A program made the position numbers and the translations under genes. Source: Cupriavidus malaysiensis (GTDB lineage Bacteria; Pseudomonadota; Gammaproteobacteria; Burkholderiales; Burkholderiaceae). From it: a stretch of DNA of 64,000 nt. A model generated the notes under the pieces. The model was given only the letters and a program-made list of their open reading frames with translations, made no database searches and had not been told where the DNA came from. Below are positions 4,270 through 64,000 of the stretch, piece after piece; position 1 is the stretch's first letter; the number at the start of each line of letters is the position of its first letter. The stretch is from contig NZ_CP017755.1 in assembly GCF_001854325.1 (NCBI RefSeq), positions 3,324,587-3,388,586 on the forward strand, written 5' to 3'.

Positions 4270-4329
4270 AGGCGCGCATCGGCGCAGCCTTCCTCCACCA
4301 CAGATCATTGACCACAGATGCCGGAGCAG

Positions 4330-4710
4330 ATGATGAGAATCCCGTATCGAATCCAACTTGCCACCTTGGCCGCATTGCTCGCCGTTGCCGCGGGCGCCTC
4401 TGCGCAGACGTACGGCGCTCCCGCCGACAACCGTAGCAGCGGCTACAGCAGCGGCACGACGGGCGCTGATGGCACCTCCGGCTCCAACCAGCCGATCACC
4501 GACAGCACCGTAACCACCAAGATCAAGACCAAGCTGCTCGCGACCAAGGACCTCAAATCGACCGGCATCCACGTCGTCACGAAGAACGGCATGGTGACGC
4601 TGACCGGCAGCGTGCCCAGCGACGCGGAACATGCGACCGCCTTGCAGGTGGTCCGTTCGGTCGATGGCGTGCGTGATGTGAACGACGAACTGAACGTGCA
4701 AGCGCGCTGA
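4330..4710 (+). CDS. Periplasmic BON-domain protein (OsmY-like)
   Basis: Two in-frame ATG codons (4330 and 4333) follow GGAG at 4323; 4333 has the better spacing. An ATG twelve bases upstream lacks a binding site. Residues 1-25 form a signal peptide (LATLAALLAVAAGASAQ). A Ser/Gly/Tyr-rich linker leads to one BON domain (ITDSTVTTKIKTKLLATKDL, then VVTKNGMVTLTGSVPS, ending VRDVNDELNVQAR). BON proteins of this type are periplasmic and rise under osmotic or envelope stress in enterobacteria, where OsmY carries two BON domains rather than one. The gene ends the plus-strand stress run and converges on the glycan operon. Confidence 0.85.
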   Translation: MMRIPYRIQLATLAALLAVAAGASAQTYGAPADNRSSGYSSGTTGADGTSGSNQPITDSTVTTKIKTKLLATKDLKSTGIHVVTKNGMVTLTGSVPSDAEHATALQVVRSVDGVRDVNDELNVQAR

Positions 4711-20196: not shown

Positions 20197-20355
20197 ATGG
20201 GCCTCGGCACAATCCTGCTCATCATTCTTCTCTTGCTACTGATCGGAGCGCTACCCGCCTGGCCGTACAGCGCGGGGTGGGGTTATTGGCCAAGCGGCGG
20301 ACTGGGCCTGGTGCTGCTGATCGTGCTGGTGCTCGTCTTCCTGGGCAGATTCTAG
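20197..20355 (+). CDS. DUF3309 small membrane protein, 52 aa
   Basis: ATG 20197 to TAG 20353-20355, with GGGAG upstream. The product starts MGLGTILLIILLLLLIGALP, continues with WPYSAGWGYWPSGGLG and ends in a second hydrophobic run LVLLIVLVLVFLGRF. This two-helix layout with a Trp/Tyr/Gly turn (AWPYSxxWGYxPSGGLG) is the DUF3309 signature. Members are tiny inner-membrane proteins of unknown role, frequent beside CsbD and BON genes in proteobacteria. Confidence in the gene is high despite its size because the family motif is complete. Confidence 0.9.
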   Translation: MGLGTILLIILLLLLIGALPAWPYSAGWGYWPSGGLGLVLLIVLVLVFLGRF

Positions 20356-20657: not shown

Positions 20658-20861
20658 ATGAACTGGGATCAGATCGAAGGCAAATGGGATCAAGCCAAGG
20701 GGAAGGTGAAGGAAAAGTGGGGAAAACTCACGGACGATGATCTGACTTACATCAACGGCAAGCGCGACCAGCTCGCCGGGCGTCTCCAGGAACGCTACGG
20801 ATACACCAAGGAAAGAACGGAAGAAGAAATGAAGGCGTGGGAACGGGATACGCGCTGGTAA
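20658..20861 (+). CDS. CsbD family stress protein
   Basis: A 67-residue protein; TAGGAGA precedes ATG 20658. MNWDQIEGKWDQAKGKVKEK, then GKLTDDDLTYINGKRDQLAG and a C-terminal EEEMKAWERDTRW are the complete CsbD pattern (YjbJ in E. coli). These are abundant hydrophilic proteins induced by sigma-B in Bacillus and by stationary or osmotic stress in proteobacteria; the molecular role is unknown. The length is standard. It stands alone, with no downstream partner on the strand for 441 bases. Confidence 0.93.
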   Translation: MNWDQIEGKWDQAKGKVKEKWGKLTDDDLTYINGKRDQLAGRLQERYGYTKERTEEEMKAWERDTRW

Positions 20862-21302
20862 AACCAGATAACGGGGCGCGTGATGCGGCGGGCGGGGATG
20901 CCAAGGCGGCGTCCTCGCCCGCTCCTGCTTCCACCCTCTCCGTTTCCCGCTCGGACACTACGGTCCACGCACGTACCAGGGCGCGATCTTGTCCGGCACG
21001 CTCGCGTAGCCCCGGCCCGTCTGGATGCCTGCGGCTTTGTCTCGCCGGCGCCAGCCTGGCGCGGCTGCCCGGCCGCCACCGGTCGAAAGTTCGCGCGGCG
21101 GTTGCAAAAGTTACAAGGTCATCGGCTTCAGCGGCCCTTGCCGCCCCAGGACGCATTGCCGGCGCGCCTCGACACGAAGCCTGAGACCTGCGCGGCGCGT
21201 GCCTCGCGCGCCGCCGTCGCCCCGCTGTGCTTGCGACGCATCACTGCCTGGGCCGCGTGCCGGCATGGCTGATGCGAGGTTGCTCGCCAAGGAGGTATCG
21301 CC
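20862..21302. other. Gap upstream of the ThDP-enzyme operon
   Basis: These 441 bases have no convincing frame. A 12-spaced GG/GC element at 21261-21275 (CGGCAT, five bases, ATGC; 7 of 10) lies just before the operon start and is too weak to list as a promoter. AAGGAGG at 21289 is the ribosome binding site of the next gene. Confidence 0.5.
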
Positions 21303-23120
21303 ATGCACCCCACGGTTGCCGACTTCGTCCTCAAACGCCTGCGCGAATGGGGCATCTACCGCATCTATGGCTATCCCGGGGACGGGATCAATGGCCTGAT
21401 GGGGGCTTTCGGCCGAGCCCGCAATGATCCCGAATTCATCCAGGTACGCCATGAGGAGCTGGCTGCCTTCATGGCTTGCGCCCATGCCAAGTTCACTGGC
21501 GAAACGGGCGTGTGCCTGGCCACTTCCGGCCCCGGCGCCATCCATCTGCTCAACGGGCTGTATGACGCCCGCCTCGATCACCAGCCGGTCGTTGCCATCG
21601 TCGGCCAGCAGAAGCGCGCGGCGCTGGGCGGCGACTACCAGCAGGAAGTCGACCTGATCACCCTGTTCAAGGATGTCGCCGGTGCCTTTGTCGCCATGGC
21701 GGTCGATCCCGCGCAAGTGCGCCATCTGGTCGACCGTGCCGTACGTATCGCCCGCGAGCAGCGTACCGTGACCTGCATCATCCTTCCCAACGATCTGCAG
21801 AACCTTCCCGCCGTCCCGGTCCCGCCACGCCAGCACGGCACGGTGCATAGCGGCATCGGTCACACCGCGCGGGCGAAGGTACCCGACCTGGTCGAGCTGC
21901 GCATCGCGGCCGATGTCCTGAACCAGGGCAGGAAGGTCGCCATGCTGGTTGGCGCGGGGGCTCTCGATGCGACCGACGAAGTCCTCGACGTCGCGCGCCG
22001 GCTCGGCGCCGGCGTGGCCAAGGCGCTGCTCGGCAAGGCGGCCGTGCCGGACGACGTGCCCTTCGTGACGGGTTCCATCGGCCTGCTTGGCACCAAGCCG
22101 AGCTGGGACCTGATGAACGGTTGCGATACCCTGCTCATGGTCGGCTCCGGCTTTCCATACTCGGAATTCCTGCCGAAGGAGGGCGACGCCCGCGGCGTCC
22201 AGATCGACATCGATGCGCGCATGCTCAACCTGCGCTACCCCATGGAGGTGTGCCTGCAGGGCGATAGCGGGGCGACCCTGCGCGCGCTGCTGCCCTTGCT
22301 GAAGCAGAAGCCGCTCGATTGGCAGCAGGAGATCGAGAAGAACGTCAGCCGCTGGTGGGACGTGCTGGCCAGCCGCGCCGCCGTCGAAGCGCACCCGATC
22401 AACCCGCAGCGCGTCTTCCACGAGTTGTCGCTACGCCTGCCCGACCGCTGCATCCTCACCTGCGACTCCGGCTCGGCCGCCAACTGGTACGCACGCGACC
22501 TGCGCATCCGCCGCGGCATGATGGCCTCGCTGAGCGGCGGCCTGGCCACCATGGGGCCCGCGGTGCCTTATGCGATCGCCGCCAAGTATGCGCATCCGGA
22601 CCGGCATGTGATCGCCATGGCCGGCGACGGCGCCATGCAGATGAACGGCATCAATGGCTTGATCACCATTGCGCGCGACTGGCGCAAGTGGAGCAACCCG
22701 GGCTTGACCGTCATGGTGCTGAACAATGGCGACCTCAACCAGGTGACGTGGGAACAGCGGGTCATGGAAGGCGATCCGAAGTTCCCGGTGTCGCAGGACG
22801 TGCCCACGTTCGGCTACGCGAAGTTCGCCGAGGCGCTCGGGCTCAACGGCATCCGGGTGGACCGCGCGGACGCGGTCGGCCCGGCCTGGGAGCAGGCCCT
22901 CGGCGCGCAGGTGCCGACCGTGCTGGAGATGGTCACGGATCCGGATGTGGCGCCGCTGCCTCCCCATGTCACCGTCAAGCAGGCGCGGGCCTACTTCACC
23001 GCCATGCTGCGCGGCGACGACGACGCCGGCGGGACCCTGCGCGCGGCCTTCATGCAGGTCTGGGAATCGCTCTTCCCGTCCAGCGAACGCCGCCACGCTG
23101 AAGCCGAGGAGCATCGATGA
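21303..23120 (+). CDS. Thiamine-diphosphate-dependent enzyme, PoxB/acetolactate-synthase family
   Basis: A 605-residue protein behind a near-perfect AAGGAGG. All three family domains are present. The Pyr domain holds the activating glutamate in VRHEELAAFMACAHAKFTGE, then CLATSGPGAIHLLNGLYDA. The middle domain runs about 195-330. The PP domain holds the metal/ThDP motif MAGDGAMQMNGINGL, ending in the paired Asn of VMVLNNGDLNQ. The family decarboxylates 2-keto acids such as pyruvate or oxalyl-CoA. It heads a coupled operon with an enolase-superfamily enzyme, an FAD/Fe-S oxidoreductase and an ASRT homologue. That context suggests catabolism of a sugar acid or hydroxy acid; the substrate is open. 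Confidence 0.88.
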   Translation: MHPTVADFVLKRLREWGIYRIYGYPGDGINGLMGAFGRARNDPEFIQVRHEELAAFMACAHAKFTGETGVCLATSGPGAIHLLNGLYDARLDHQPVVAIVGQQKRAALGGDYQQEVDLITLFKDVAGAFVAMAVDPAQVRHLVDRAVRIAREQRTVTCIILPNDLQNLPAVPVPPRQHGTVHSGIGHTARAKVPDLVELRIAADVLNQGRKVAMLVGAGALDATDEVLDVARRLGAGVAKALLGKAAVPDDVPFVTGSIGLLGTKPSWDLMNGCDTLLMVGSGFPYSEFLPKEGDARGVQIDIDARMLNLRYPMEVCLQGDSGATLRALLPLLKQKPLDWQQEIEKNVSRWWDVLASRAAVEAHPINPQRVFHELSLRLPDRCILTCDSGSAANWYARDLRIRRGMMASLSGGLATMGPAVPYAIAAKYAHPDRHVIAMAGDGAMQMNGINGLITIARDWRKWSNPGLTVMVLNNGDLNQVTWEQRVMEGDPKFPVSQDVPTFGYAKFAEALGLNGIRVDRADAVGPAWEQALGAQVPTVLEMVTDPDVAPLPPHVTVKQARAYFTAMLRGDDDAGGTLRAAFMQVWESLFPSSERRHAEAEEHR

Positions 23121-24214
23121 GCGGCGGCGATTCAATGCGGCTCCAGGCCATCGAAGCGCGCGCCTACCGCATTCCGACCGAAACGGCGGAGTCCGACGGC
23201 ACGCTGTGCTGGGACAGCGAGACGCTGGTCGTCGTCAACGTGTCGGCCGGCGGCATCACGGGAATGGGCTACGGCTACTCCGATGCCTCCGCGGCAGCGC
23301 TGATCGGACAGCGCCTGGCGCCTTGCCTGGTGGGCCGGAACGCGTTCGCGGTCGAAGCGTGCTGGCAGGCGATGGCCGCTTCGGTACGCAACCTGGGACG
23401 CTCCGGCTTGTGCGCGCAGGCCATCGCAACCGTGGACATCGCGCTCTGGGACCTCAAGGCACGCCTGCTCGGCGTGTCGCTGGCGCGCCTGCTCGGCGTC
23501 GTGCGCGACGCCGTGCCGGCCTACGGCAGCGGCGGCTTCACCAGCATGAACCTGATGCAATTGCGGGAGCAGGCGAAAGCCTGGAGCGAAGCGGGCTTCG
23601 GCCGCATCAAGATCAAGATCGGACGCGACCCCGCCGGCGACGTGGCACGTGTCAGCGCCGCGCGGCAGGCGGCCGGCCCGAAGACGGAGCTGTACGTGGA
23701 CGCCAATGGCGCCTACCGGGTCGCCCAGGCGATCGGCTTGGCGCACCAGTTCGCCGACTACGACGTGAGCTGGCTCGAAGAACCCGTATCGTCCGACGAC
23801 ATCGCCGGCCTGCGCCAGGTCCGCCGGCACGCACCGCCCGGCATGGCGGTCTCCGCCGGGGAGTACGCCTTCACGGTGGACGACTTCCGGCGCCTGCTGC
23901 AGCGAGGCGCGGTGGATGTGCTGCAGGCCGACGCAAGCCGTTGCGGCGTCACGGGCTGGTTGCAGGCCGCTGCGTTATGCGAGGCCTTCCATACGCCGTT
24001 GTCCAGCCATTGCGTGCCAGCGCTGCATGCGACGCTGTGCTGCGTCGCGCAGCCGGCCATCCACGTCGAAGTCTTCCATGATCACGCGCGTATCGAACAC
24101 ACCCTGTTCGACGGCGTGCCGCCCTTGCGGGACGGCTGCCTCCGGCCATGGCAAGACGCGCCGGGATTCGGCCTGACCTTCAAGGAGAGGGACGCGCAAT
24201 GCTATCTCGTCTAG
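23117..24214 (+). CDS. Enolase-superfamily (mandelate racemase/dehydratase-like) enzyme
   Basis: A 365-residue protein starting in the ATGA overlap with the ThDP gene; an internal ATG at 23135 is also possible. The barrel carries KIKIG (Lys-x-Lys acid/base), metal-ligand acids in LYVDANGAY, WLEEPV and VSAGEYAF, then LQADASRCGVTGW and LSSHCVPALHA. Asp and His in the last two would form the His-Asp dyad of the mandelate-racemase subgroup, whose members are mainly acid-sugar dehydratases and racemases. The capping domain (IPTETAESDGTLCWDSETLV) is complete. It should bind Mg and abstract an alpha proton of a carboxylate. Its stop overlaps the start of the large oxidoreductase by 16 bases. Confidence 0.85.
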   Translation: MSGGDSMRLQAIEARAYRIPTETAESDGTLCWDSETLVVVNVSAGGITGMGYGYSDASAAALIGQRLAPCLVGRNAFAVEACWQAMAASVRNLGRSGLCAQAIATVDIALWDLKARLLGVSLARLLGVVRDAVPAYGSGGFTSMNLMQLREQAKAWSEAGFGRIKIKIGRDPAGDVARVSAARQAAGPKTELYVDANGAYRVAQAIGLAHQFADYDVSWLEEPVSSDDIAGLRQVRRHAPPGMAVSAGEYAFTVDDFRRLLQRGAVDVLQADASRCGVTGWLQAAALCEAFHTPLSSHCVPALHATLCCVAQPAIHVEVFHDHARIEHTLFDGVPPLRDGCLRPWQDAPGFGLTFKERDAQCYLV

Positions 24215-27162
24215 TCCAGCCCGGTCCCCCGGGTGCAGCGGGTGCAGCGGGTGCCGCCGAGGCGGCGCGCAGGGTGGACGCCGTGGGGCTGCAGCGCGCC
24301 TTGCGCGAGGCCGTCGACGGCGAGATCCGCTTCGATGACGGCAGCCGGGCCTTGTACGCGACCGATGCGTCGAACTACCGGCAGGTGCCGATCGGCGTGG
24401 TGGTGCCGCGCACCATCGACGCCGTGGTGGCCACGGTCGAGCAATGCCGCCGCTACGGCGCGCCGGTATTGTCGCGCGGCGGCGGCACCAGCCTGTGTGG
24501 ACAGTGCTGCAATGTCGCCGTGGTCATCGACTTCTCGAAATACCTCAACCGCATCGTGGCGCTCGACCCCGGCGAGAAGACCGCGCGGGTGCAGCCGGGC
24601 GTGGTGCTGGACCGGCTCCGGGAAGCCGCGGAGGTCCACCACCTGACCTTCGCGCCCGATCCGGCCACGCACTCCCATAACACGCTGGGCGGCATGATCG
24701 GCAACAATTCCTGCGGTCCGCACTCGGTCATGGGTGGCGAGACCGTGCGCAATGTGATCGAACTCGATGTCCTCACCTACGATGGCACGCGCATGGTGGT
24801 CGGCGCCACGACACAAGAGGCCTGGGACCTGCTGTGCGCGCGCGGCGACCGCGTCGGCGCCATCTACCGCTCGTTGCGAAAACTGCGCGACACCTATGCG
24901 GACAGCATCCGCCGCCATATGCCGCGCATTCCGCGCCGGGTTTCCGGTTACAGCCTGGAGGCTTTGCTGCCCGAGTATGACGGCAACATCGCCCACGCCC
25001 TGGTGGGTTCGGAAGGCACCTGCGTGGTGGTGCTGGAGGCCAAGGTGCAGCTGGTCGACAGCCCCTTGGCACGGTCGGTACTGGCGCTGGGGTATCCGGA
25101 CGTCTACCGCGCGGCCGACCATGTCACCCGCATCATGGCTCATCATCCGATCGCCCTGGAGGGCCTGGACGACAGGCTGGTCGCCGACATGAAAGCGGTC
25201 GGCCTGCACACCGGGGATATCGGCTTGCTGCCGGAAGGAAAGGGATGGCTGCTGGTAGAGTTCGGCGGCAAGGACAAGGGCGAATCGGACCACCACGCAC
25301 GCACGCTCATGGAGGCGCTGCGCGGCGAGGACCGGCCGCCCACCATGAAGCTGTACGACGACCCCGTGGTCGAACGGCACCTGTGGCGGGTGCGCGAAGC
25401 CGGGCTGGGCGCCACCGCGCACGTGCCGAACCGCAAGATCACCTGGGAGGGCTGGGAAGACTCCGCCGTGCCGCCCGACCGCCTGGGCGAATACCTGCGC
25501 AAGCTCCGCGCCCTGTTCGAGGCATACGGCTATGGTTGCGACCTGTACGGCCATTTCGGCCAGGGCTGCGTGCACACGCGGATCGATTTCGACCTGGAGA
25601 GTGCCGACGGTATCCGCCAATGGCGCAGCTTCCTGCAAGAGGCGGCGAAGCTGGTGGTCAGCCTGGGCGGCTCGATCTCGGGCGAACACGGCGACGGGCA
25701 GTCCAAGGCCGAGTTGCTTCCCATCATGTACCCGCCGGATCTGATGCGCGCCTTCCACGCTTTCAAGCGCACCTGGGACCCGGCCAACAAGCTCAATCCC
25801 GGCAAGGTCGTGGACGCGTGGCACGTGGAAGACAATCTTCGCCTCGGCGTCGACTACGACCCGCCCGAACAGCCCGTCCACTTCCACTACGCCAGCGACA
25901 ACGGCAGCTTCCCGCACGCCATCCTGCGCTGCGTCGGCGTGGGCGAATGCCGCAAGGCCGAGGGGCTGATGTGTCCCAGCTACATGGCGACGCAAGAGGA
26001 GCTTCACTCCACGCGCGGGCGCGCGCGCATGCTGTTCGAAATGCTGCATGGCGATGTGCTGCAGGATGGCTGGCGCTCCGAAGCGGTCCACGAGGCCCTC
26101 GACCTGTGCCTGTCCTGCAAGGGATGCAAGGGTGAATGCCCGGTCAAGGTCGACATGGCGACGTACCGGGCCGAGTTCCTGGCGCACTTCTATGCGGGAC
26201 GGATCCGTCCGCGCGAAGCCTATGCCTTCGGCCTGATCGACCGCTGGGCCAGGATCGGGACCCGCATGCCAGGCCTGGCCAACCTGCTGACGCATGCCGA
26301 GCCGTTCGCTTCGGCGGCCCGCCGCCTCGCCCATATCGCGTCCGGCCGCGAGATTCCCAATTTCGCGGCGACCTCCTTCCGGCAATGGTTTGCCCGCCGC
26401 GCCTCCCGGCCGTCGCCGGGCCGGCGCGTCCTGCTCTGGCCTGACACCTTCACCAACGCCTTCCACCCGGACATTGCCCGCGATGCCGTGGCCGCGCTCG
26501 AGCTTGCCGGCTATGCGGTGGACATCCCCCCGCATGCGTTGTGCTGCGGCCGGCCGCTCTACGAGTTCGGCATGCTCGACCGCGCGCGCGCCTATCTGCG
26601 CCGCGTGCTGGAAGTCCTGCACGACGACATCCGCGACGGCACGCCGCTCATCGTGCTGGAACCAGCGTGCCTGTCGGTATTCCATGACGAAATGCCGGAT
26701 CTTCTCGCCGGCAGTGCGCAGGCCAGGCGCCTGCGGCAACAGTCCACGCTGCTCGCCGACTTCCTTTGCGCGGAAGAGAAAAGCGGCCTTTTCCCCCAAG
26801 TGGAGACAGACGCCATCGTGCATCCACACTGTCACCACAGGAGTGTGCTGGGACTGGATGGAGAGACGGCACTGCTCGATGCGCTCGGCGTGCGGTATCG
26901 CCTGCTCGATTCCGGCTGCTGCGGCATGGCCGGCGCCTTCGGTCTCCACCCGGCCAGGCAAGGCATCTCCATGGCATGCGCGGAACGCGTGCTGCTGCCC
27001 GCGATCCGCGGCGCCGCGGCGCAGACGCTGGTCATCGCGGACGGTTTCAGCTGCCGGGAACAGATACGCCAGAACACCAGCGCCGTGCCCCTGCACATCG
27101 CGCAGGTCCTGCGGCTGGCGAGCGAGCGTGCCAACCGGGAAAACGGAGACATTGCACCATGA
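24199..27162 (+). CDS. Large FAD-linked/Fe-S oxidoreductase, D-2-hydroxyacid dehydrogenase type
   Basis: A 987-residue protein with AAGGAG before ATG 24199. Domains in order: FAD-binding PCMH (VLSRGGGTSLCGQCCNVAVV, then NTLGGMIGNNSCGPHSVMGG); FAD-oxidase C-terminal domain (FGQGCVHTRIDFDLE, then GSISGEHGDGQSKAELLPIM); 4Fe-4S ferredoxin domain (CVGVGECRKAEGLMCPSY, then CLSCKGCKGECPVKVD); and two CCG domains (LCCGRPLYEFGML, then GCCGMAGAFGLHP). This is the YdiJ/D-2-hydroxyglutarate dehydrogenase layout: hydroxy acid to keto acid, with electrons passed by Fe-S to a membrane acceptor. It fits upstream of a 2-keto acid decarboxylase-type enzyme. The leader is Gly/Ala/Pro-rich. Confidence 0.9.
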   Translation: MLSRLVQPGPPGAAGAAGAAEAARRVDAVGLQRALREAVDGEIRFDDGSRALYATDASNYRQVPIGVVVPRTIDAVVATVEQCRRYGAPVLSRGGGTSLCGQCCNVAVVIDFSKYLNRIVALDPGEKTARVQPGVVLDRLREAAEVHHLTFAPDPATHSHNTLGGMIGNNSCGPHSVMGGETVRNVIELDVLTYDGTRMVVGATTQEAWDLLCARGDRVGAIYRSLRKLRDTYADSIRRHMPRIPRRVSGYSLEALLPEYDGNIAHALVGSEGTCVVVLEAKVQLVDSPLARSVLALGYPDVYRAADHVTRIMAHHPIALEGLDDRLVADMKAVGLHTGDIGLLPEGKGWLLVEFGGKDKGESDHHARTLMEALRGEDRPPTMKLYDDPVVERHLWRVREAGLGATAHVPNRKITWEGWEDSAVPPDRLGEYLRKLRALFEAYGYGCDLYGHFGQGCVHTRIDFDLESADGIRQWRSFLQEAAKLVVSLGGSISGEHGDGQSKAELLPIMYPPDLMRAFHAFKRTWDPANKLNPGKVVDAWHVEDNLRLGVDYDPPEQPVHFHYASDNGSFPHAILRCVGVGECRKAEGLMCPSYMATQEELHSTRGRARMLFEMLHGDVLQDGWRSEAVHEALDLCLSCKGCKGECPVKVDMATYRAEFLAHFYAGRIRPREAYAFGLIDRWARIGTRMPGLANLLTHAEPFASAARRLAHIASGREIPNFAATSFRQWFARRASRPSPGRRVLLWPDTFTNAFHPDIARDAVAALELAGYAVDIPPHALCCGRPLYEFGMLDRARAYLRRVLEVLHDDIRDGTPLIVLEPACLSVFHDEMPDLLAGSAQARRLRQQSTLLADFLCAEEKSGLFPQVETDAIVHPHCHHRSVLGLDGETALLDALGVRYRLLDSGCCGMAGAFGLHPARQGISMACAERVLLPAIRGAAAQTLVIADGFSCREQIRQNTSAVPLHIAQVLRLASERANRENGDIAP

Positions 27163-27530
27163 ACCGATCCATCGGCAAGCGCATCTGGGCGATCGCGGAG
27201 GGCTATCTGCCGGAAGCCGCAGAAGGCAAGCCGCGCGCGCTGCAGAGCCACGAGGTCGCGTGCATCCTGAATGCCGGCGACCACGACGCGCACGTCCGCC
27301 TGACACTGTACTTCGCCGACCGGGAGCCGGTCGGGCCCTACCGCTTCAGTGTGCTGGCGCGCCGCACCTTGCATCTGCGCTTCAACGACCTGAAGGAGCC
27401 GGCCATTCCTATCGGCACGGATTACGCCAGCGTCTTCGAGTCCGACCAGCCGGTCATCGTGCAGCACACCCGCCTCGACAGCCGGCAGGGCCTGGCCCTC
27501 ATGACGACGCTCGCCTACACGGCCGATTAG
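27159..27530 (+). CDS. Anabaena sensory rhodopsin transducer-like protein (ASRT, PF07100 family)
   Basis: A 123-residue protein whose ATG overlaps the previous stop as ATGA. SIGKRIWAIAEGYLP, SHEVACILNAGDHDAHVRL, YFADREPVGPYRFSVLARR, LRFNDLKEPAIPIGTDYASV and VQHTRLDSRQGLALMTT match, in order and over the whole length, the ASRT fold I recall: a small beta-sandwich tetramer that binds DNA and NADPH/sugar ligands and partners sensory rhodopsin in Anabaena. No rhodopsin gene lies in this window. As last gene of a catabolic operon it may sense a metabolite of that pathway or bind carbohydrate. The function here is unknown; the family call is strong. Confidence 0.88.
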   Translation: MNRSIGKRIWAIAEGYLPEAAEGKPRALQSHEVACILNAGDHDAHVRLTLYFADREPVGPYRFSVLARRTLHLRFNDLKEPAIPIGTDYASVFESDQPVIVQHTRLDSRQGLALMTTLAYTAD

Positions 27531-27833
27531 CGCCTGCCAAGCCTGCTGCCACCCTCGGCAGGCGCGCGACGGCGACGAGGCCACCGCGGTGAGAGTGCGG
27601 CATAGGGCGGGTTCCATGCAGCGAACGCACCGATCCGGGCACCCGGGCACTCGCATCATCCATCGCGAGCACGCCGGTCCGATGCCGACCCGCCCCTGGG
27701 TTCCGCTATGCGCCGTCATGGCGACGACGGCTTTCGCGCGTGGTACGCATTCTGCTTCGCCCACATCGCAGGCACCCGGTTCGTACACCCGCGTGCCCGC
27801 GCATCCCACCCGTTCTTCGTGAAGGAGACCACG
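27531..27833. other. Gap between ASRT and CBS genes
   Basis: A plus-strand element at 27741-27756 is the only clear signal in these 303 bases. No hairpin with a T tract closes the ASRT operon here. Confidence 0.5.
27741..27756 (+). promoter_or_regulatory. Candidate sigma-54 promoter for the CBS gene
   Basis: It reads TGGTAC, five bases, CTGCT: 8 of 10 consensus matches, spacing 12, located 78 bases before ATG 27834. Confidence 0.5.
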
Positions 27834-28298
27834 ATGCAAGAAGCGCTATCCCAGGATGGCAGCGGCCCTTGCGTAGCCGATGCGATGACGCGAGATCCCG
27901 CTTACCTGGCCGCGGAGGATACGGTGCGCCATGCCGCCGAGCTGATGGCGGACCTGCAAGTCGGCGCCCTTCCGGTCTGCGTCGGCCGCCGGCTGGTCGG
28001 CATGCTGACCGACCGCGACATCGCGATACGCTGCGTGGCCTGCGGCAAGCCGGCAGAGACTACGAGCGTGGCGGAGGCGATGTCGGGCGCCTTGCAGTGG
28101 TGCAGCGCGTCCGACACGCTCGCAACCGCGGCGCGGATGATGGCGCAGGCCCAGGTGCGCCGCCTTCCGGTGATCGACGCCGATCATCAACTCATCGGCA
28201 TCCTGTCGCTCGGCGACCTGGCGACCCGGCCAGCCGTCGAAACCGATTCCGGCCAAGCGCTGGCGCGCATCTCCTCGCCCTCGACCCGCGCCCGCTAG
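27834..28298 (+). CDS. Two-CBS-domain protein
   Basis: A 154-residue protein behind AAGGAG. CBS1 covers about 12-68 (VADAMTRDPAYLAAEDTVRH, then VGALPVCVGRRLVGMLTDRD) and CBS2 about 75-135 (VAEAMSGALQWCSASDTLAT, then VRRLPVIDADHQLIGILSLG). Standalone CBS pairs (Bateman modules) bind adenine nucleotides such as AMP, ATP or NAD and act as energy sensors. Such proteins are common in stress islands of Burkholderiales next to BON and hemerythrin genes. The length is normal with a short Ser/Arg tail. Target protein unknown. The candidate sigma-54 element upstream links it to the other stress genes. Confidence 0.9.
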   Translation: MQEALSQDGSGPCVADAMTRDPAYLAAEDTVRHAAELMADLQVGALPVCVGRRLVGMLTDRDIAIRCVACGKPAETTSVAEAMSGALQWCSASDTLATAARMMAQAQVRRLPVIDADHQLIGILSLGDLATRPAVETDSGQALARISSPSTRAR

Positions 28299-28557: not shown

Positions 28558-29052
28558 TCACGCGCCGGCCCCCTCCGGCCCCGGCGCCGCCCCCCGTTTT
28601 GCCTCGAGCGCCAGGGCCCGGTAATAGTCAGCCAGACGGGTAAGGCTCGCCTCATCCAGTTCTTCGATCGCCACCAGGTTCATGCTCGCTCCCCGGCTCG
28701 ACGCCAGCAACTCGTCGAGCTTCAGGTGCAAGGCGATCGAATCGCGATTCTGGCTTTGCTGGATCAGGAACACCATCAGGAACGTGATGACATTGGTCAC
28801 CGTGTTGGCGACCAGTTGCCAGGCATCGGAGTAGTGGAAGATCGGCGCCACGGCGCCCCACAGCAGGGTGGCGCCCAAGGCTGCGATGAAGGCCCAGGAC
28901 GACCCGGCCGCACCGGTCGCCCAGCGCGACACGCGATCGAACGTCTGCCCCGGCGACGCGGCCCCTTCCGCAGGCCCATGATGGCGGTGCCCTGCCAGGC
29001 CGGCGCAGACCCGTACGCAGCGCCTGACCCAATACGGCTGCCTGATTCGCAT
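28558..29052 (-). CDS. Low-affinity iron permease family membrane protein
   Basis: A 164-residue protein; AGGGGAA precedes ATG 29052. After a basic N-terminus come two membrane helices (SSWAFIAALGATLLWGAVAP; LVANTVTNVITFLMVFLIQQ), then the conserved QSQNRDSIALHLKLDELL and a soluble C-terminus with EELDEASLTRLADYYRAL. This is the bacterial low-affinity iron permease (Fet4-related) family pattern. Iron transport by bacterial members is assumed from the yeast homologue rather than shown, so the name is a family label. Nearby hemerythrin and CBS genes give a metal or redox-stress context. Confidence 0.85.
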   Translation of the reverse strand: MRIRQPYWVRRCVRVCAGLAGHRHHGPAEGAASPGQTFDRVSRWATGAAGSSWAFIAALGATLLWGAVAPIFHYSDAWQLVANTVTNVITFLMVFLIQQSQNRDSIALHLKLDELLASSRGASMNLVAIEELDEASLTRLADYYRALALEAKRGAAPGPEGAGA

Positions 29053-29557: not shown

Positions 29558-30022
29558 CTAGCGCACGAGCTCCGCTTGTCTCGCGCGCATGCGTTCTGCC
29601 AGTTCCGACAGATCGACGTCGTGCTGGATCAAGGCGGGGAACAGCTCATCTTCTTCTTCGTGGATATGATGCTCGACGTTCTCGCCCAACACAGTGAAGC
29701 GGGCTTCGAACAACGCATCCCCCGGATGCATCCGCTCCAGTTCGGCAATCAGCTTCTTCGCGCCATCATGCTCCACCAGCGCCTCGTCGATGAGCGGGCC
29801 GAATGCGTCCGGGTCGCTTTCCCGTACGAAGGGATAGAAGAGAGACTCTTCCAGCTCCGTATGCGCCTTCAAGGCGGCACAGGTCTCGCTGGCAATCCGG
29901 CCGCCGCTTCCGCCGTCAGCTGCCTTGGCGAAATCCCGGAAGGCCTTCTGGACTTTCCGATGATCATCGATCAGCAGGGACAATGCCGCTTTTTGCGCCG
30001 CGGGGATGTCTGTCTTGTTCAT
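29558..30022 (-). CDS. Hemerythrin HHE cation-binding domain protein
   Basis: A 154-residue four-helix protein behind AGGAG. Iron-ligand motifs are in order: LLIDDHRKVQKAFRDF, CAALKAHTELEESLFYPFVR, ALVEHDGAKKLIAELE and VEHHIHEEEDELFPAL. This is the complete H-HxxxE-H-HxxxE set of a di-iron hemerythrin-like domain. Family members bind oxygen or NO, or store iron; the DUF-type HHE proteins of Burkholderiales are often stress-linked. Cytoplasmic, no signal peptide. It lies 100 bases upstream of the small membrane protein on the same strand. No sigma-54 element was found upstream. Confidence 0.9.
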   Translation of the reverse strand: MNKTDIPAAQKAALSLLIDDHRKVQKAFRDFAKAADGGSGGRIASETCAALKAHTELEESLFYPFVRESDPDAFGPLIDEALVEHDGAKKLIAELERMHPGDALFEARFTVLGENVEHHIHEEEDELFPALIQHDVDLSELAERMRARQAELVR

Positions 30023-30180: not shown

Positions 30181-30699
30181 TCAGGGCCGCGTATCCGAGG
30201 TCAGGCGCTCCGCCATCTGCAGATGGCGTTCCAGGGCGGGTAGCGTCTTCACCGCGAAGGCCTGCACGTCCTTGTCCCTGGAGTCCTTGGTTGCCTGGCG
30301 GAACAATGCCACCGCCTCGTGGTGCGCCTTGACGCCGATGGTATCCGCGTACTCCCGGTCGAAATCCGCCTGCTGCAGGGACTCCAGCCGGGCCAGGGCA
30401 TGCTCGGTCTCCGGCGTCGGCCCGGCCGGCAAGGCCACGCCCTTTCTCCGGGCCAGCCGCTCCAGTTCCTCGGCAGCCATCTGATGATCATGCAGCATGG
30501 CATCGGCGAACCGCCTCACCTCCACGTTCTGCGTGTGCGTGGCCGCGAGGCGGCTGGCCTGCATTTCCAGCTCGCCCGCCTGGTCCGCCTTGCGCAGGAA
30601 TTCCTGCTCCTGGGCGGTGACCGCATGGACGCCGGCAGCGCCGGCCATCGCCAGCACGGCAATCGACAGCCGCATGGCCTTTCGTAGTGTCTTGCTCAT
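30181..30699 (-). CDS. DUF4142 periplasmic protein
   Basis: A 172-residue protein; AGGAAG precedes ATG 30699. The signal peptide is about residues 1-28 (LRKAMRLSIAVLAMAGAAGV, then HAVTAQ). The mature part is an all-helical, ferritin-like DUF4142 domain: FLRKADQAGELEMQASRLAA, then VRRFADAMLHDHQMAAEELE, then FDREYADTIGVKAHHEAVAL. The family is widespread in periplasms of Burkholderiales and is of unknown function; its HDH and AHHEA histidines could bind metal. It lies beside the hemerythrin gene on the same strand, 158 bases upstream of it. Confidence 0.88.
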   Translation of the reverse strand: MSKTLRKAMRLSIAVLAMAGAAGVHAVTAQEQEFLRKADQAGELEMQASRLAATHTQNVEVRRFADAMLHDHQMAAEELERLARRKGVALPAGPTPETEHALARLESLQQADFDREYADTIGVKAHHEAVALFRQATKDSRDKDVQAFAVKTLPALERHLQMAERLTSDTRP

Positions 30700-31151
30700 A
30701 CTGTGCTTCCTGACATGGTCAATCACTCCATCGCCGTCGCCGAACGCGCTTCGGTGCCGGCTGGCACGGGCGGATTCGCACGCTGCCCGCATCGGCCACG
30801 ACGCGGCGGCGGCCAGCCCGTTCCCATTGCCGTCTCCCTGCTCGCAATTGGTGTGCCATCCGGACGCGGCGTCTTCGCGCCTTCGCGTCGTGCGCGGACG
30901 CGCGCAGTCGGCAGAATGTGCTACGGCGACTTGAAAAATCTTCACGCGCTTGCCATGAGACGCAGCGCGGTGGCGGTGGATCTGCCGGGGTATGGCGGGG
31001 AGCGCCAAAGATGACGGCGCCAGGACGATAGACGGGGACAGCCGAAGGACGGCCGGGCAAACGCGCTGGCGAGCGATCGCTCTCGCGCCCGAGCCGTTCG
31101 AGCACTCGCCGGCGGCATGCCCGCGGCCCGTTCGGGGCGGCAGACGCGCGG
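30700..31151. other. Gap between DUF4142 and the response regulator
   Basis: These 452 bases contain no frame that looks coding and no hairpin with a T tract. Possible upstream signals for the DUF4142 gene were examined; GG/GC pairs occur one base off the sigma-54 spacing. Confidence 0.5.
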
Positions 31152-32561
31152 CTACGGGGAAGGTGGGAAAGCAGGTGGCTTTCCCACCGCACGCAGGCTG
31201 CGGATCGATTCCGGCAGCTTGCCGGTCGCCTCGTAGTATTCGAGCTTGTTGTAGAGCGTCTTCAAGCTCACGCCCAGGATCTGCGCGGTCTTCTTCTTGA
31301 CGCCATCGCATTTCAGCAGGGTGGCGAAGATCAATTCCCGTTCGACTTCGTCGATCGAGGTACCGACATGGAAGGAGATGATCGACGGGTCCGGCGCCGG
31401 CTCCGGTGCGGCAACCAACGTGATACCGATATCGTCGATCAGGTCGTTCGTCGCCATGATGTGCGCGCGATGCACCACGTTGCGCAGTTCCCGTACATTG
31501 CCCGGCCAGGAGTGCGCGCGCAGGCTCAGCAAAGCACCTTCGCCGAAGCGCCGCTCGGTTCCGTAGCGCGCATTGAGAACCGCGAGGAATCTGGCCGCGA
31601 GCACGTCGATGTCATCGACGCGCTCACGCAGCGGCGGAATCACGATGGGGAATACATTCAAGCGATGGAACAGGTCGACGCGGAACCTGCCTTCTGCCAC
31701 GGCTTCGAGCGGGTCACGATTGGTGGCGGCAATGATGCGGCAGTTGGCCTGGCACTCGCCGTGTCCGCCCACACGGAGATAGGCGCCGGACTCCAGGGTT
31801 CGCAACAGCTTCACCTGGAGTTCCACCGGCATTTCGGTCACTTCGTCCAGGAAGAGCGTGCCGGTGCCGGCCTGGTCGAAGTAGCCCTGATGTTGGCGAT
31901 GGGCGCCGGTGAAACTGCCTTTCTCATGGCCGAAGAACTCGCTCTCCAGCAGCATCGGCGAGATCGCACCGCAGTTGACCGGGGTGAACGGCGCTTCACG
32001 CCTGGCCGACAGTTCATGCAGCGTCTGTGCGACGAGCTCCTTTCCGGTACCGCTCTCGCCGACCAGGAAGACCGAGGCATCCGTCCGCGCGACGCGTTCC
32101 AGCTCGTGGTACATATGGCGCATGGCCCGCGACGTGCCGATCAGGCGCCCGAATCCACCGCTCTCCGTCACCTGTCCCGCCGCGCCGCTTCCGAATGGCC
32201 GGGGCTTTTTCTGTTTCTCGATCGCGCGCAGCAAGGCGAGCAGATGCTGCGGGTCGACCGGCTTGGTCAGGTAGTCGGTTGCGCCGGCACGCATCGCATG
32301 GATGGCCGTGTCGACGCTGGCGCGGCCGGTCATCACAATGAACGGCGCCTCGCCGATGTCGGCGCCTGCCAGCAGATCCACGCCGTCCCCATCGGGCAGC
32401 ATCAGGTCCGCCAGGATGGCGTCCGGCCGTTGCGCGCCGAGATACAACTCCGCTTCGCGCAGCGTCCCTGCGGAATCGGCCGTGAAGCCTTCTGCCACCA
32501 CCAGACTGGCCAGTGCATCGCATACGGCCTTGTCATCATCGACGATCAAAAGATTGGTCAT
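31152..32561 (-). CDS. Sigma-54-dependent response regulator (NtrC family)
   Basis: A 469-residue protein. The receiver domain has the acidic pocket in LLIVDDDKAV, phospho-acceptor Asp-52 in LADLMLPDGDG, the switch Thr in MTGRAS and Lys in YLTKPVDP. The AAA+ domain (about 140-380) has Walker A GESGTGKE, the sigma-54-contacting loop as GSFTGA, Walker B FLDEV and arginine fingers in EGRFRVDLFHRL. The C-terminal Fis-type helix-turn-helix is VKKKTAQILGVSLKTLYNKL. It should activate sigma-54 promoters when phosphorylated. No histidine kinase gene adjoins it, so the partner is elsewhere. Several candidate -24/-12 promoters in this window make it a plausible local activator. Confidence 0.93.
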   Translation of the reverse strand: MTNLLIVDDDKAVCDALASLVVAEGFTADSAGTLREAELYLGAQRPDAILADLMLPDGDGVDLLAGADIGEAPFIVMTGRASVDTAIHAMRAGATDYLTKPVDPQHLLALLRAIEKQKKPRPFGSGAAGQVTESGGFGRLIGTSRAMRHMYHELERVARTDASVFLVGESGTGKELVAQTLHELSARREAPFTPVNCGAISPMLLESEFFGHEKGSFTGAHRQHQGYFDQAGTGTLFLDEVTEMPVELQVKLLRTLESGAYLRVGGHGECQANCRIIAATNRDPLEAVAEGRFRVDLFHRLNVFPIVIPPLRERVDDIDVLAARFLAVLNARYGTERRFGEGALLSLRAHSWPGNVRELRNVVHRAHIMATNDLIDDIGITLVAAPEPAPDPSIISFHVGTSIDEVERELIFATLLKCDGVKKKTAQILGVSLKTLYNKLEYYEATGKLPESIRSLRAVGKPPAFPPSP

Positions 32562-63789: not shown

Positions 63790-64000
63790 GTGACCCCTAC
63801 CGCAAGCGGCCGGGCGGCGCCCGCAGGCACCGCCACCCCGAGCGCGATGGCGCAACTGCAGGAGGACGCCGTTTACCGCAAGGTGGCCTGGCGCCTGATG
63901 CCCTTCCTGATGCTCTGTTATGTCGTGGCCTATCTCGACCGCGTCAATGTCGGCTTCGCCAAGCTCAGCATGCTGGCCGACCTGCAGTTCAGCGAGTCGA
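63790..64000 (+). CDS. MFS transporter, anion:cation symporter type, 3' end outside window
   Basis: The GTG at 63790 follows AAGGAGAC. About 70 residues are seen: a hydrophilic start, then VYRKVAWRLMPFLMLCYVVA and YLDRVNVGFAKLSMLADLQF, the first-helix signature of the ACS family (tartrate, phthalate, allantoate, glucarate carriers) with the conserved Tyr, Asp-Arg and Asn-Val-Gly-Phe-Ala. The divergent allA gene and shared operators suggest import of an allantoin-derived or related anion. The gene runs off the window. Confidence 0.85.
   Translation, partial: MTPTASGRAAPAGTATPSAMAQLQEDAVYRKVAWRLMPFLMLCYVVAYLDRVNVGFAKLSMLADLQFSES

Follow-up and report, generated by a model that had tools for sequence, protein, structure and literature searches.

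Positions 21303-27530 of a 64,000-nucleotide stretch of the Cupriavidus malaysiensis genome (hereafter the window; contig NZ_CP017755.1, 3,324,587-3,388,586) contain four plus-strand genes, each overlapping the next. They encode an enzyme dependent on thiamine diphosphate (ThDP), an enolase-superfamily protein, an FAD/Fe-S dehydrogenase and a protein of the ASRT family, which was described as the partner of Anabaena sensory rhodopsin (ASR). A sequence-only reading of the window had proposed this arrangement, and it stands, with the families now assigned by profile search. A Shine-Dalgarno-like AAGGAGG (21289-21295, +), read directly, lies 7 bases 5′ of the first start codon. The ThDP gene (21303-23120, +) encodes a pyruvate-oxidase-like member of NF006129/PRK08273. 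The enolase gene (23117-24214, +), encoding a candidate acid-sugar dehydratase of the MR subgroup, begins in an ATGA overlap at 23117. It could also start at a second ATG, at 23135, which agrees with an alignment to the closest solved relative, Protein Data Bank (PDB) entry 3cyj. The gene for the FAD/Fe-S 2-hydroxy-acid dehydrogenase (24199-27162, +; 987 amino acids; FAD_binding_4, FAD-oxidase_C, Fer4 and CCG domains) overlaps the enolase gene by 16 bases, and a longer start at 24148 is possible. The ASRT gene (27159-27530, +; 123 amino acids) starts with the ATG at 27159, within the ATGA that ends the dehydrogenase gene, and has its stop at 27530. Gene overlap, families, conservation, catalytic residues, dehydrogenase exclusion, pocket changes and rhodopsin matches, as given here, were all computed.

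The four-gene operon is real and conserved. ASRT relatives were collected from a one-genome-per-species collection with patterns from six close relatives, and the best 80 of 390 were used. Neighbouring genes were labelled by single-sequence searches with score thresholds that we set, and short loci (L001-L006) were dropped throughout; one comparison also left out the near-duplicates L053, L074, L093, L094 and L099. The order ThDP, enolase, FAD/Fe-S and ASRT on one strand occurs in six of these 80 loci (L022, L030, L050, L064, L070 and L082), from Noviherbaspirillum (two), Paucimonas, and metagenome-assembled genomes (MAGs) classed as Oxalobacteraceae, proteobacterial and alphaproteobacterial. 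Geotalea (L043) has this order with an SDR gene inserted. In two Acidobacteria (L073, L081) these genes are rearranged, and in L073 the FAD/Fe-S gene is split. Alkalilimnicola (L016) has a ThDP gene, a split FAD/Fe-S gene and ASRT, with no enolase detected. Of 398 genomes drawn evenly from the phylum, five had ASRT, the host genome included; among the other four, G270 has the four-gene order (L096), G418 has a version with a different dehydrogenase, called GMC below (L098), and G153 and G357 have neither. The sequence-only reading had proposed looking for this order in other genomes. Since it recurs, in the six loci and in G270, it is not due to chance.

The Oxalobacteraceae proteins are 75% (ThDP) and 63-68% (FAD/Fe-S) identical to those of the window. 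The exact ATGA overlap of the FAD/Fe-S and ASRT genes is not general: the spacing was measurable in 7 of 11 other loci, of which five have estimated gaps of 1, 15, 23, 141 and 540 bp, and the remaining two have 2076 bp across the SDR gene (L043) and a heuristic value of -85 at the split gene (L016). Within the genus, ASRT occurs in 5 of 35 other Cupriavidus genomes, beside GH13 and luciferase-like genes, and these ASRTs do not group with that of the window in a tree. Because their neighbours and tree position differ, the operon was probably acquired separately.

Neighbourhoods of this kind have been reported before. De Souza, Iyer and Aravind (2009; PMC2739507) described an ASRT neighbourhood with these gene kinds and proposed a sugar sensor, and the window has all four kinds adjacent. 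The sequence-only reading took the composition to be undescribed, which that paper contradicts. The two main ideas of that reading had thus been published before, and the pathway chemistry and the role of ASRT remain proposals. A literature search by the gene names of the module found no paper on it, and for ASRAH/DUF1362 the 2009 paper was the sole relevant one among the matches listed.

The ThDP enzyme has all three ThDP domains (hmmscan) and scores 1027 bits against NF006129/PRK08273 (cut-off 724), an equivalog named merely "thiamine pyrophosphate-requiring protein". It scores under the curated cut-offs of the pyruvate oxidase models shown. An alignment with E. coli PoxB (PDB 3ey9) spans 570 residues and retains the catalytic E50, while Q, S and Q occupy the PoxB pocket positions F112, V380 and F465, i.e., the PoxB-type pyruvate pocket is absent. 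Across 62 proteins, window included, E50 and the Gln at position 112 are invariant, while 59 have Ser at 380 and 57 have Gln at 465. We take the roles of PoxB F465 and E50 to be those implied here, a pocket and a catalytic residue. Passages of PMC7824062 report that docking places F112 and V380 of PoxB at 2-4 Å from the alkyl side chain of the substrate, and that the F112T and V380T variants retain 1.7% and 10% of pyruvate activity. Given the replacement of this pocket by Gln, Ser and Gln, the enzyme probably acts on a polar 2-keto acid and not on pyruvate. A branch of the pyruvate oxidase family is thus predicted to act on a substrate other than pyruvate.

We rejected the ThDP enzyme as proof of the pathway: in the 398-genome draw, 26 genomes have an NF006129 protein that passes the cut-off, and 23 of them have no ASRT match. 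At 20 of these 23 loci there is also no enolase and no module dehydrogenase within about 9 kb on each side (less for some). Two solo matches each have one in-frame stop (G408:C2:123463-125238 and G117:C1:4800049-4801821), possibly reflecting decay, sequencing error or a match that overruns the gene's own stop.

The enolase has the MR-subgroup residues K159, K161, D189, N191, E215, E216, E243, D266, H292 and E312, which presumably make up the KxK motif, the His-Asp dyad and the metal ligands. These ten positions are identical in all 44 enolase loci studied, except for one gap each at E243, D266, H292 and E312. It falls short of the L-talarate/galactarate dehydratase (TalrD/GalrD) equivalog, scoring 196 bits against an NCBIfam cut-off of 500. 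Similarly, the FAD/Fe-S protein falls outside the YdiJ D-2-hydroxyglutarate dehydrogenase equivalog (434 bits; NCBIfam cut-off 1350) and scores under the curated cut-off of the GlcD model. Its closest solved relatives are D-lactate dehydrogenase/glycolate oxidase, and, in common with YdiJ-type enzymes, it contains the motifs GHFGQGCVHTR and GEHGDG.

Across loci, the enolase occurs with either of two unrelated dehydrogenases. The 44 enolase loci comprise 17 plasmid loci fetched for the enolase (of 35 plasmid records, picked for variety) together with ASRT and ThDP loci; three further plasmid records of the 35 (L007, L009 and L010) came through ASRT, which brings the plasmid enolase loci to 20. 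The FAD/Fe-S enzyme is present in 17 of the 44 loci, a GMC/gluconate-2-dehydrogenase set (GMC/Gdh3) in 22, both in none, and neither in five (L012, L013, L019, L088 and L139, some on short contigs). This mutual exclusion has a Fisher p of 7.7e-8, a value that is too optimistic given that the loci are related. The ten catalytic positions of the enolase are the same in the two versions (single gaps aside), and no position of the enolase separates them by a different majority residue at 80% or more in each. The ThDP enzyme and the enolase are the core of this module, and the mutually exclusive dehydrogenases and the shared catalytic residues suggest that a single pathway has had its sugar-acid dehydrogenase exchanged. 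By annotation, GMC and gluconate 2-dehydrogenase subunit 3 point to sugar-acid oxidation. Two unrelated dehydrogenases are thus predicted to perform the same step in the module.

Repeated swaps of the dehydrogenase are not established: the enolase tree (42 of the 44 rows, with L139 and L073 excluded as divergent or partial) has 5 label changes for GMC and 7 for FAD, but its well-supported branches force just 1. A protein of ~305-334 amino acids with no Pfam match recurs in the GMC/Gdh3 module, mostly between the enolase and Gdh3 genes (e.g., L007:15049-15966 and L010:4707-5711). In favour of a carbohydrate-related module, GH15 genes lie near 16 and SDR genes near 24 of the 39 dehydrogenase-bearing module loci, versus 0 of 20 solo-ThDP loci, with p-values that are too good in that the queries came from a module locus and the loci are related. 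Cytochrome oxidase or cytochrome bd genes surround four plasmid modules within the fetched stretch (not a systematic count), and these neighbours suggest that the module is used in respiration.

The ASRT protein matches PF07100 with 160.6 bits (curated cut-off 25) over profile positions 1-118 of 119, a full-length match. Its pocket signature SHExxCxxN reads SHEVACILN. H31 is present in 91 of 91 proteins and C35 in 90 of 91, window included, and an Arg and a His are also invariant. The pocket His and Cys of the family were already named in PMC2739507. Together these conserved residues suggest an anionic ligand. ASRT and the module co-occur above chance in the 398-genome draw: three genomes are common to the five with ASRT and the six with the ThDP enzyme plus a module dehydrogenase (p = 1.9e-5; 7.6e-4 without the host).

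A tree of ASRT proteins (93 rows, 123 columns; near-duplicates L093, L094 and L099 dropped) does not resolve a single origin of the FAD-type ASRTs. The window protein forms a long branch with no supported kin, and resolution is low outside the group that contains the Anabaena protein, with 29 of 89 inner branches supported. A second recurrent setting of ASRT has a GH13 alpha-amylase-type gene, often with a luciferase-like monooxygenase (Pfam). Of the 91 ASRT loci in the tree, 22 have GH13 as their context label, in cyanobacteria, Bacteroidota, Stenotrophomonas and other Cupriavidus; such loci include L023, L038, L052, L055, L057, L060, L072, L091 and L092.

The explanation that we prefer, with a probability of roughly 0.65, is a sugar-acid oxidation module with ASRT as an accessory ligand sensor. 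The FAD/Fe-S enzyme would oxidize a 2-hydroxy sugar acid to a 2-keto acid, with quinone receiving the electrons by way of the Fe-S and CCG sites. The ThDP enzyme would decarboxylate, probably oxidatively, a polar sugar-derived 2-keto acid, and the MR-type enolase would form a 2-keto-3-deoxy acid by dehydrating a sugar acid. ASRT would bind its ligand, an anionic sugar metabolite, in the cytoplasm and, as a sensor, adjust either the enzymes or their expression; it would not transduce light here. The step order, the electron acceptor, and the oligomeric state and target of ASRT are our assignments, and this exact chemistry is less likely than not. The sequence-only reading had proposed a catabolic operon with ASRT as a possible metabolite sensor. 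The families bear this out, in that hydroxy-acid oxidation, dehydration and keto-acid decarboxylation fit them, and the substrates are conjectural. A bolder version, which we find doubtful, is an undescribed quinone-linked shortening of sugar acids by one carbon, using either of the two unrelated dehydrogenases and gated by ASRT as a free-standing sugar-acid sensor, which the Anabaena rhodopsin later recruited. An aldonate would be oxidized at C2, a pyruvate oxidase family member specific for sugars would oxidatively decarboxylate the resulting 2-keto acid, and the shortened aldonate would then be dehydrated.

Several observations weigh against the sugar-acid module with its sensor. Since a 2-keto-3-deoxy acid lacks a hydroxyl at C2, the three enzymes cannot act one after another on one molecule as a simple linear chain, and the four genes include no aldolase, transporter or regulator. 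The polar ThDP pocket also occurs in solo copies (n=20, with the Q/S/Q pattern in 20, 19 and 18 at positions 112, 380 and 465); it is therefore a trait of the whole subfamily and no proof of a sugar substrate. ASRT itself looks optional and not essential to the module, because 17 of the 20 plasmid enolase loci have no ASRT within ~9.5 kb and the three that do were all found via ASRT. Conversely, 61 of the best 80 ASRT loci have no enolase match in their stretch (some contigs are short). Among ten GMC-type loci with both ASRT and enolase, ASRT is on the strand opposite to the enolase in eight; there it is thus a neighbour, and membership in the operon is a trait of the FAD type.

The enzymes might instead clear end products. 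In that case the ThDP enzyme would be a conventional respiratory pyruvate oxidase, with D-lactate, glycolate or glycerate as the substrate of the FAD/Fe-S enzyme, and both would remove compounds formed once the dehydratase product has undergone aldol cleavage in another part of the cell's metabolism. The lack of an aldolase among the four genes fits this explanation, as does the fact that the closest solved relatives are PoxB/pyruvate oxidase and D-lactate dehydrogenase/glycolate oxidase. However, the replaced PoxB pocket and the scores under the cut-offs for the pyruvate oxidase models, GlcD and YdiJ argue against it, and the exchange with GMC/Gdh3 indicates a sugar acid rather than lactate or glycolate. 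We consider it unlikely. ASRT could also be a DNA-binding regulator, as reported for the Anabaena protein, and control the operon from a promoter within 20862-21302. Passages of PMC8660804 report DNA binding and looping by Anabaena ASRT, and an increase in reporter expression. The three reported contacts were matched to the 2II7 chain with an assumed one-residue numbering offset; by this match, all 91 proteins keep the Arg and 11 of the 12 FAD-type ones keep the Gln, but the third contact is Asn in just 2 of these 12 and Leu in 8. Moreover, the same passages give an affinity of ~10 µM with weak sequence dependence. A random-sequence DNA was looped more efficiently than the promoter fragment, and higher expression was seen "in all constructs", a pattern suggestive of unspecific binding. 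This role is also rather improbable.

Nor does a light-sensing role fit. The window ASRT is 60% identical to that of Anabaena, so it might serve a rhodopsin encoded elsewhere in the genome. The absence of a rhodopsin gene, noted in the sequence-only reading for the window, extends to the host genome: a profile search found no PF01036 match there, nor in the control genomes of that search. The genome (7.95 Mb, 3 contigs) is rated 99.99% complete, and the same profile detects a rhodopsin in a Fischerella genome (E=4.6e-54). A heliorhodopsin search, run with no positive control, likewise had no match in the host. Among 49 ASRT genomes searched, chosen from the 80 loci, 48 had no rhodopsin match and one did, the Fischerella gene, which has one in-frame stop. 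That gene is not beside ASRT, being absent from the open reading frames at L038 8500-19500 (assuming the ASRT contig and the same orientation), where ASRT is followed by GH13 and a luciferase-like gene. Thus, neither the operon nor the genome offers the window ASRT a rhodopsin partner of the Anabaena type, and such a partnership is hardly credible.

The Anabaena ASRT falls into a supported six-row group (99/89) with proteins from Mojavia, UBA8803, Fischerella and two Pontibacter. GH13 is nearby in three of the five companions, and Mojavia has a luciferase-like gene. Four of the companion genomes (all except L046) were searched for rhodopsin, with a match only in Fischerella; Mojavia and UBA8803 are MAGs and perhaps incomplete. 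Because the Anabaena protein groups with ASRTs that, where checked, have no adjoining rhodopsin, its rhodopsin link is most simply seen as a later recruitment. Passages of PMC3198991 state that ASRT is not confined to photosensory signalling and describe the ASR-ASRT link as peculiar to Anabaena PCC 7120. The family name is misleading, and doubts about the general function of the family date back to 2009. According to the tree, photosensory signalling through ASRT in Anabaena looks like an offshoot of a family associated with carbohydrate genes. The three enzymes and the candidate sensor form a defined set that lends itself to joint production and assay, which makes the ligand of ASRT testable.

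The surroundings of the operon include a sigma-54-dependent response regulator (31155-32561, −; Sigma54_activat, Response_reg and HTH_8) ~3.6 kb downstream, which is a possible regulator of the operon; in Methylomagnum, too, ASRT has a sigma-54 regulator ~7 kb away. Small stress-type genes flank the operon, namely BON (4318-4710), DUF3309 (20197-20355), CsbD (20658-20861), CBS (27708-28298), low-affinity iron permease (28558-29052), hemerythrin (29558-30022) and DUF4142 (30181-30714). Some relatives' loci are also annotated with such genes. The idea of a stress island, in which the module travels with these markers, was rejected by counts: at least one of eight markers was present in 8 of the 36 module loci, compared with 8 of 40 loci that have ASRT alone and 11 of 19 with a solo ThDP gene. 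The difference between module and solo loci (p=0.016) runs counter to the idea. The count used single-sequence queries and loci of at least 17 kb, leaving out the near-duplicates dropped from the ASRT tree, and its CBS query was misframed and carries no weight. A protein with CYTH and CHAD domains is encoded at 1181-2941 (−), and window position 64000 is the exact end of contig C2 (3,388,586 bases).

The individual proteins each resemble a known system in part. The ThDP enzyme shares its family and catalytic Glu with PoxB/pyruvate:quinone oxidoreductase, but PoxB has the hydrophobic F112/V380/F465 pocket where the window protein has Q/S/Q, and the latter is below the pyruvate oxidase cut-offs. 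The enolase shares the KxK motif, His-Asp dyad and metal ligands with L-talarate/galactarate dehydratase and other MR-type acid-sugar dehydratases, and an ESDGT..W loop with 3cyj, which is labelled just as an MR/MLE-like protein and which we take to be from Rubrobacter. The FAD/Fe-S protein combines FAD and Fe-S/CCG parts in one chain, as do YdiJ-type enzymes. As a whole, the operon is closest to the ASRT-like (ASRAH family 1) neighbourhoods of PMC2739507, which have the same four gene kinds and for which the same sensor role was proposed; the authors list Rubrobacter xylanophilus as having the ThDP/dehydratase neighbourhood. The main text of that paper contains no GMC/Gdh3 exchange, no ThDP pocket change and no tree placing the Anabaena ASRT. 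With the Anabaena ASR-ASRT pair, the window ASRT has the pocket His and Cys in common; it differs in that its genome has no rhodopsin match and its partner genes are catabolic.

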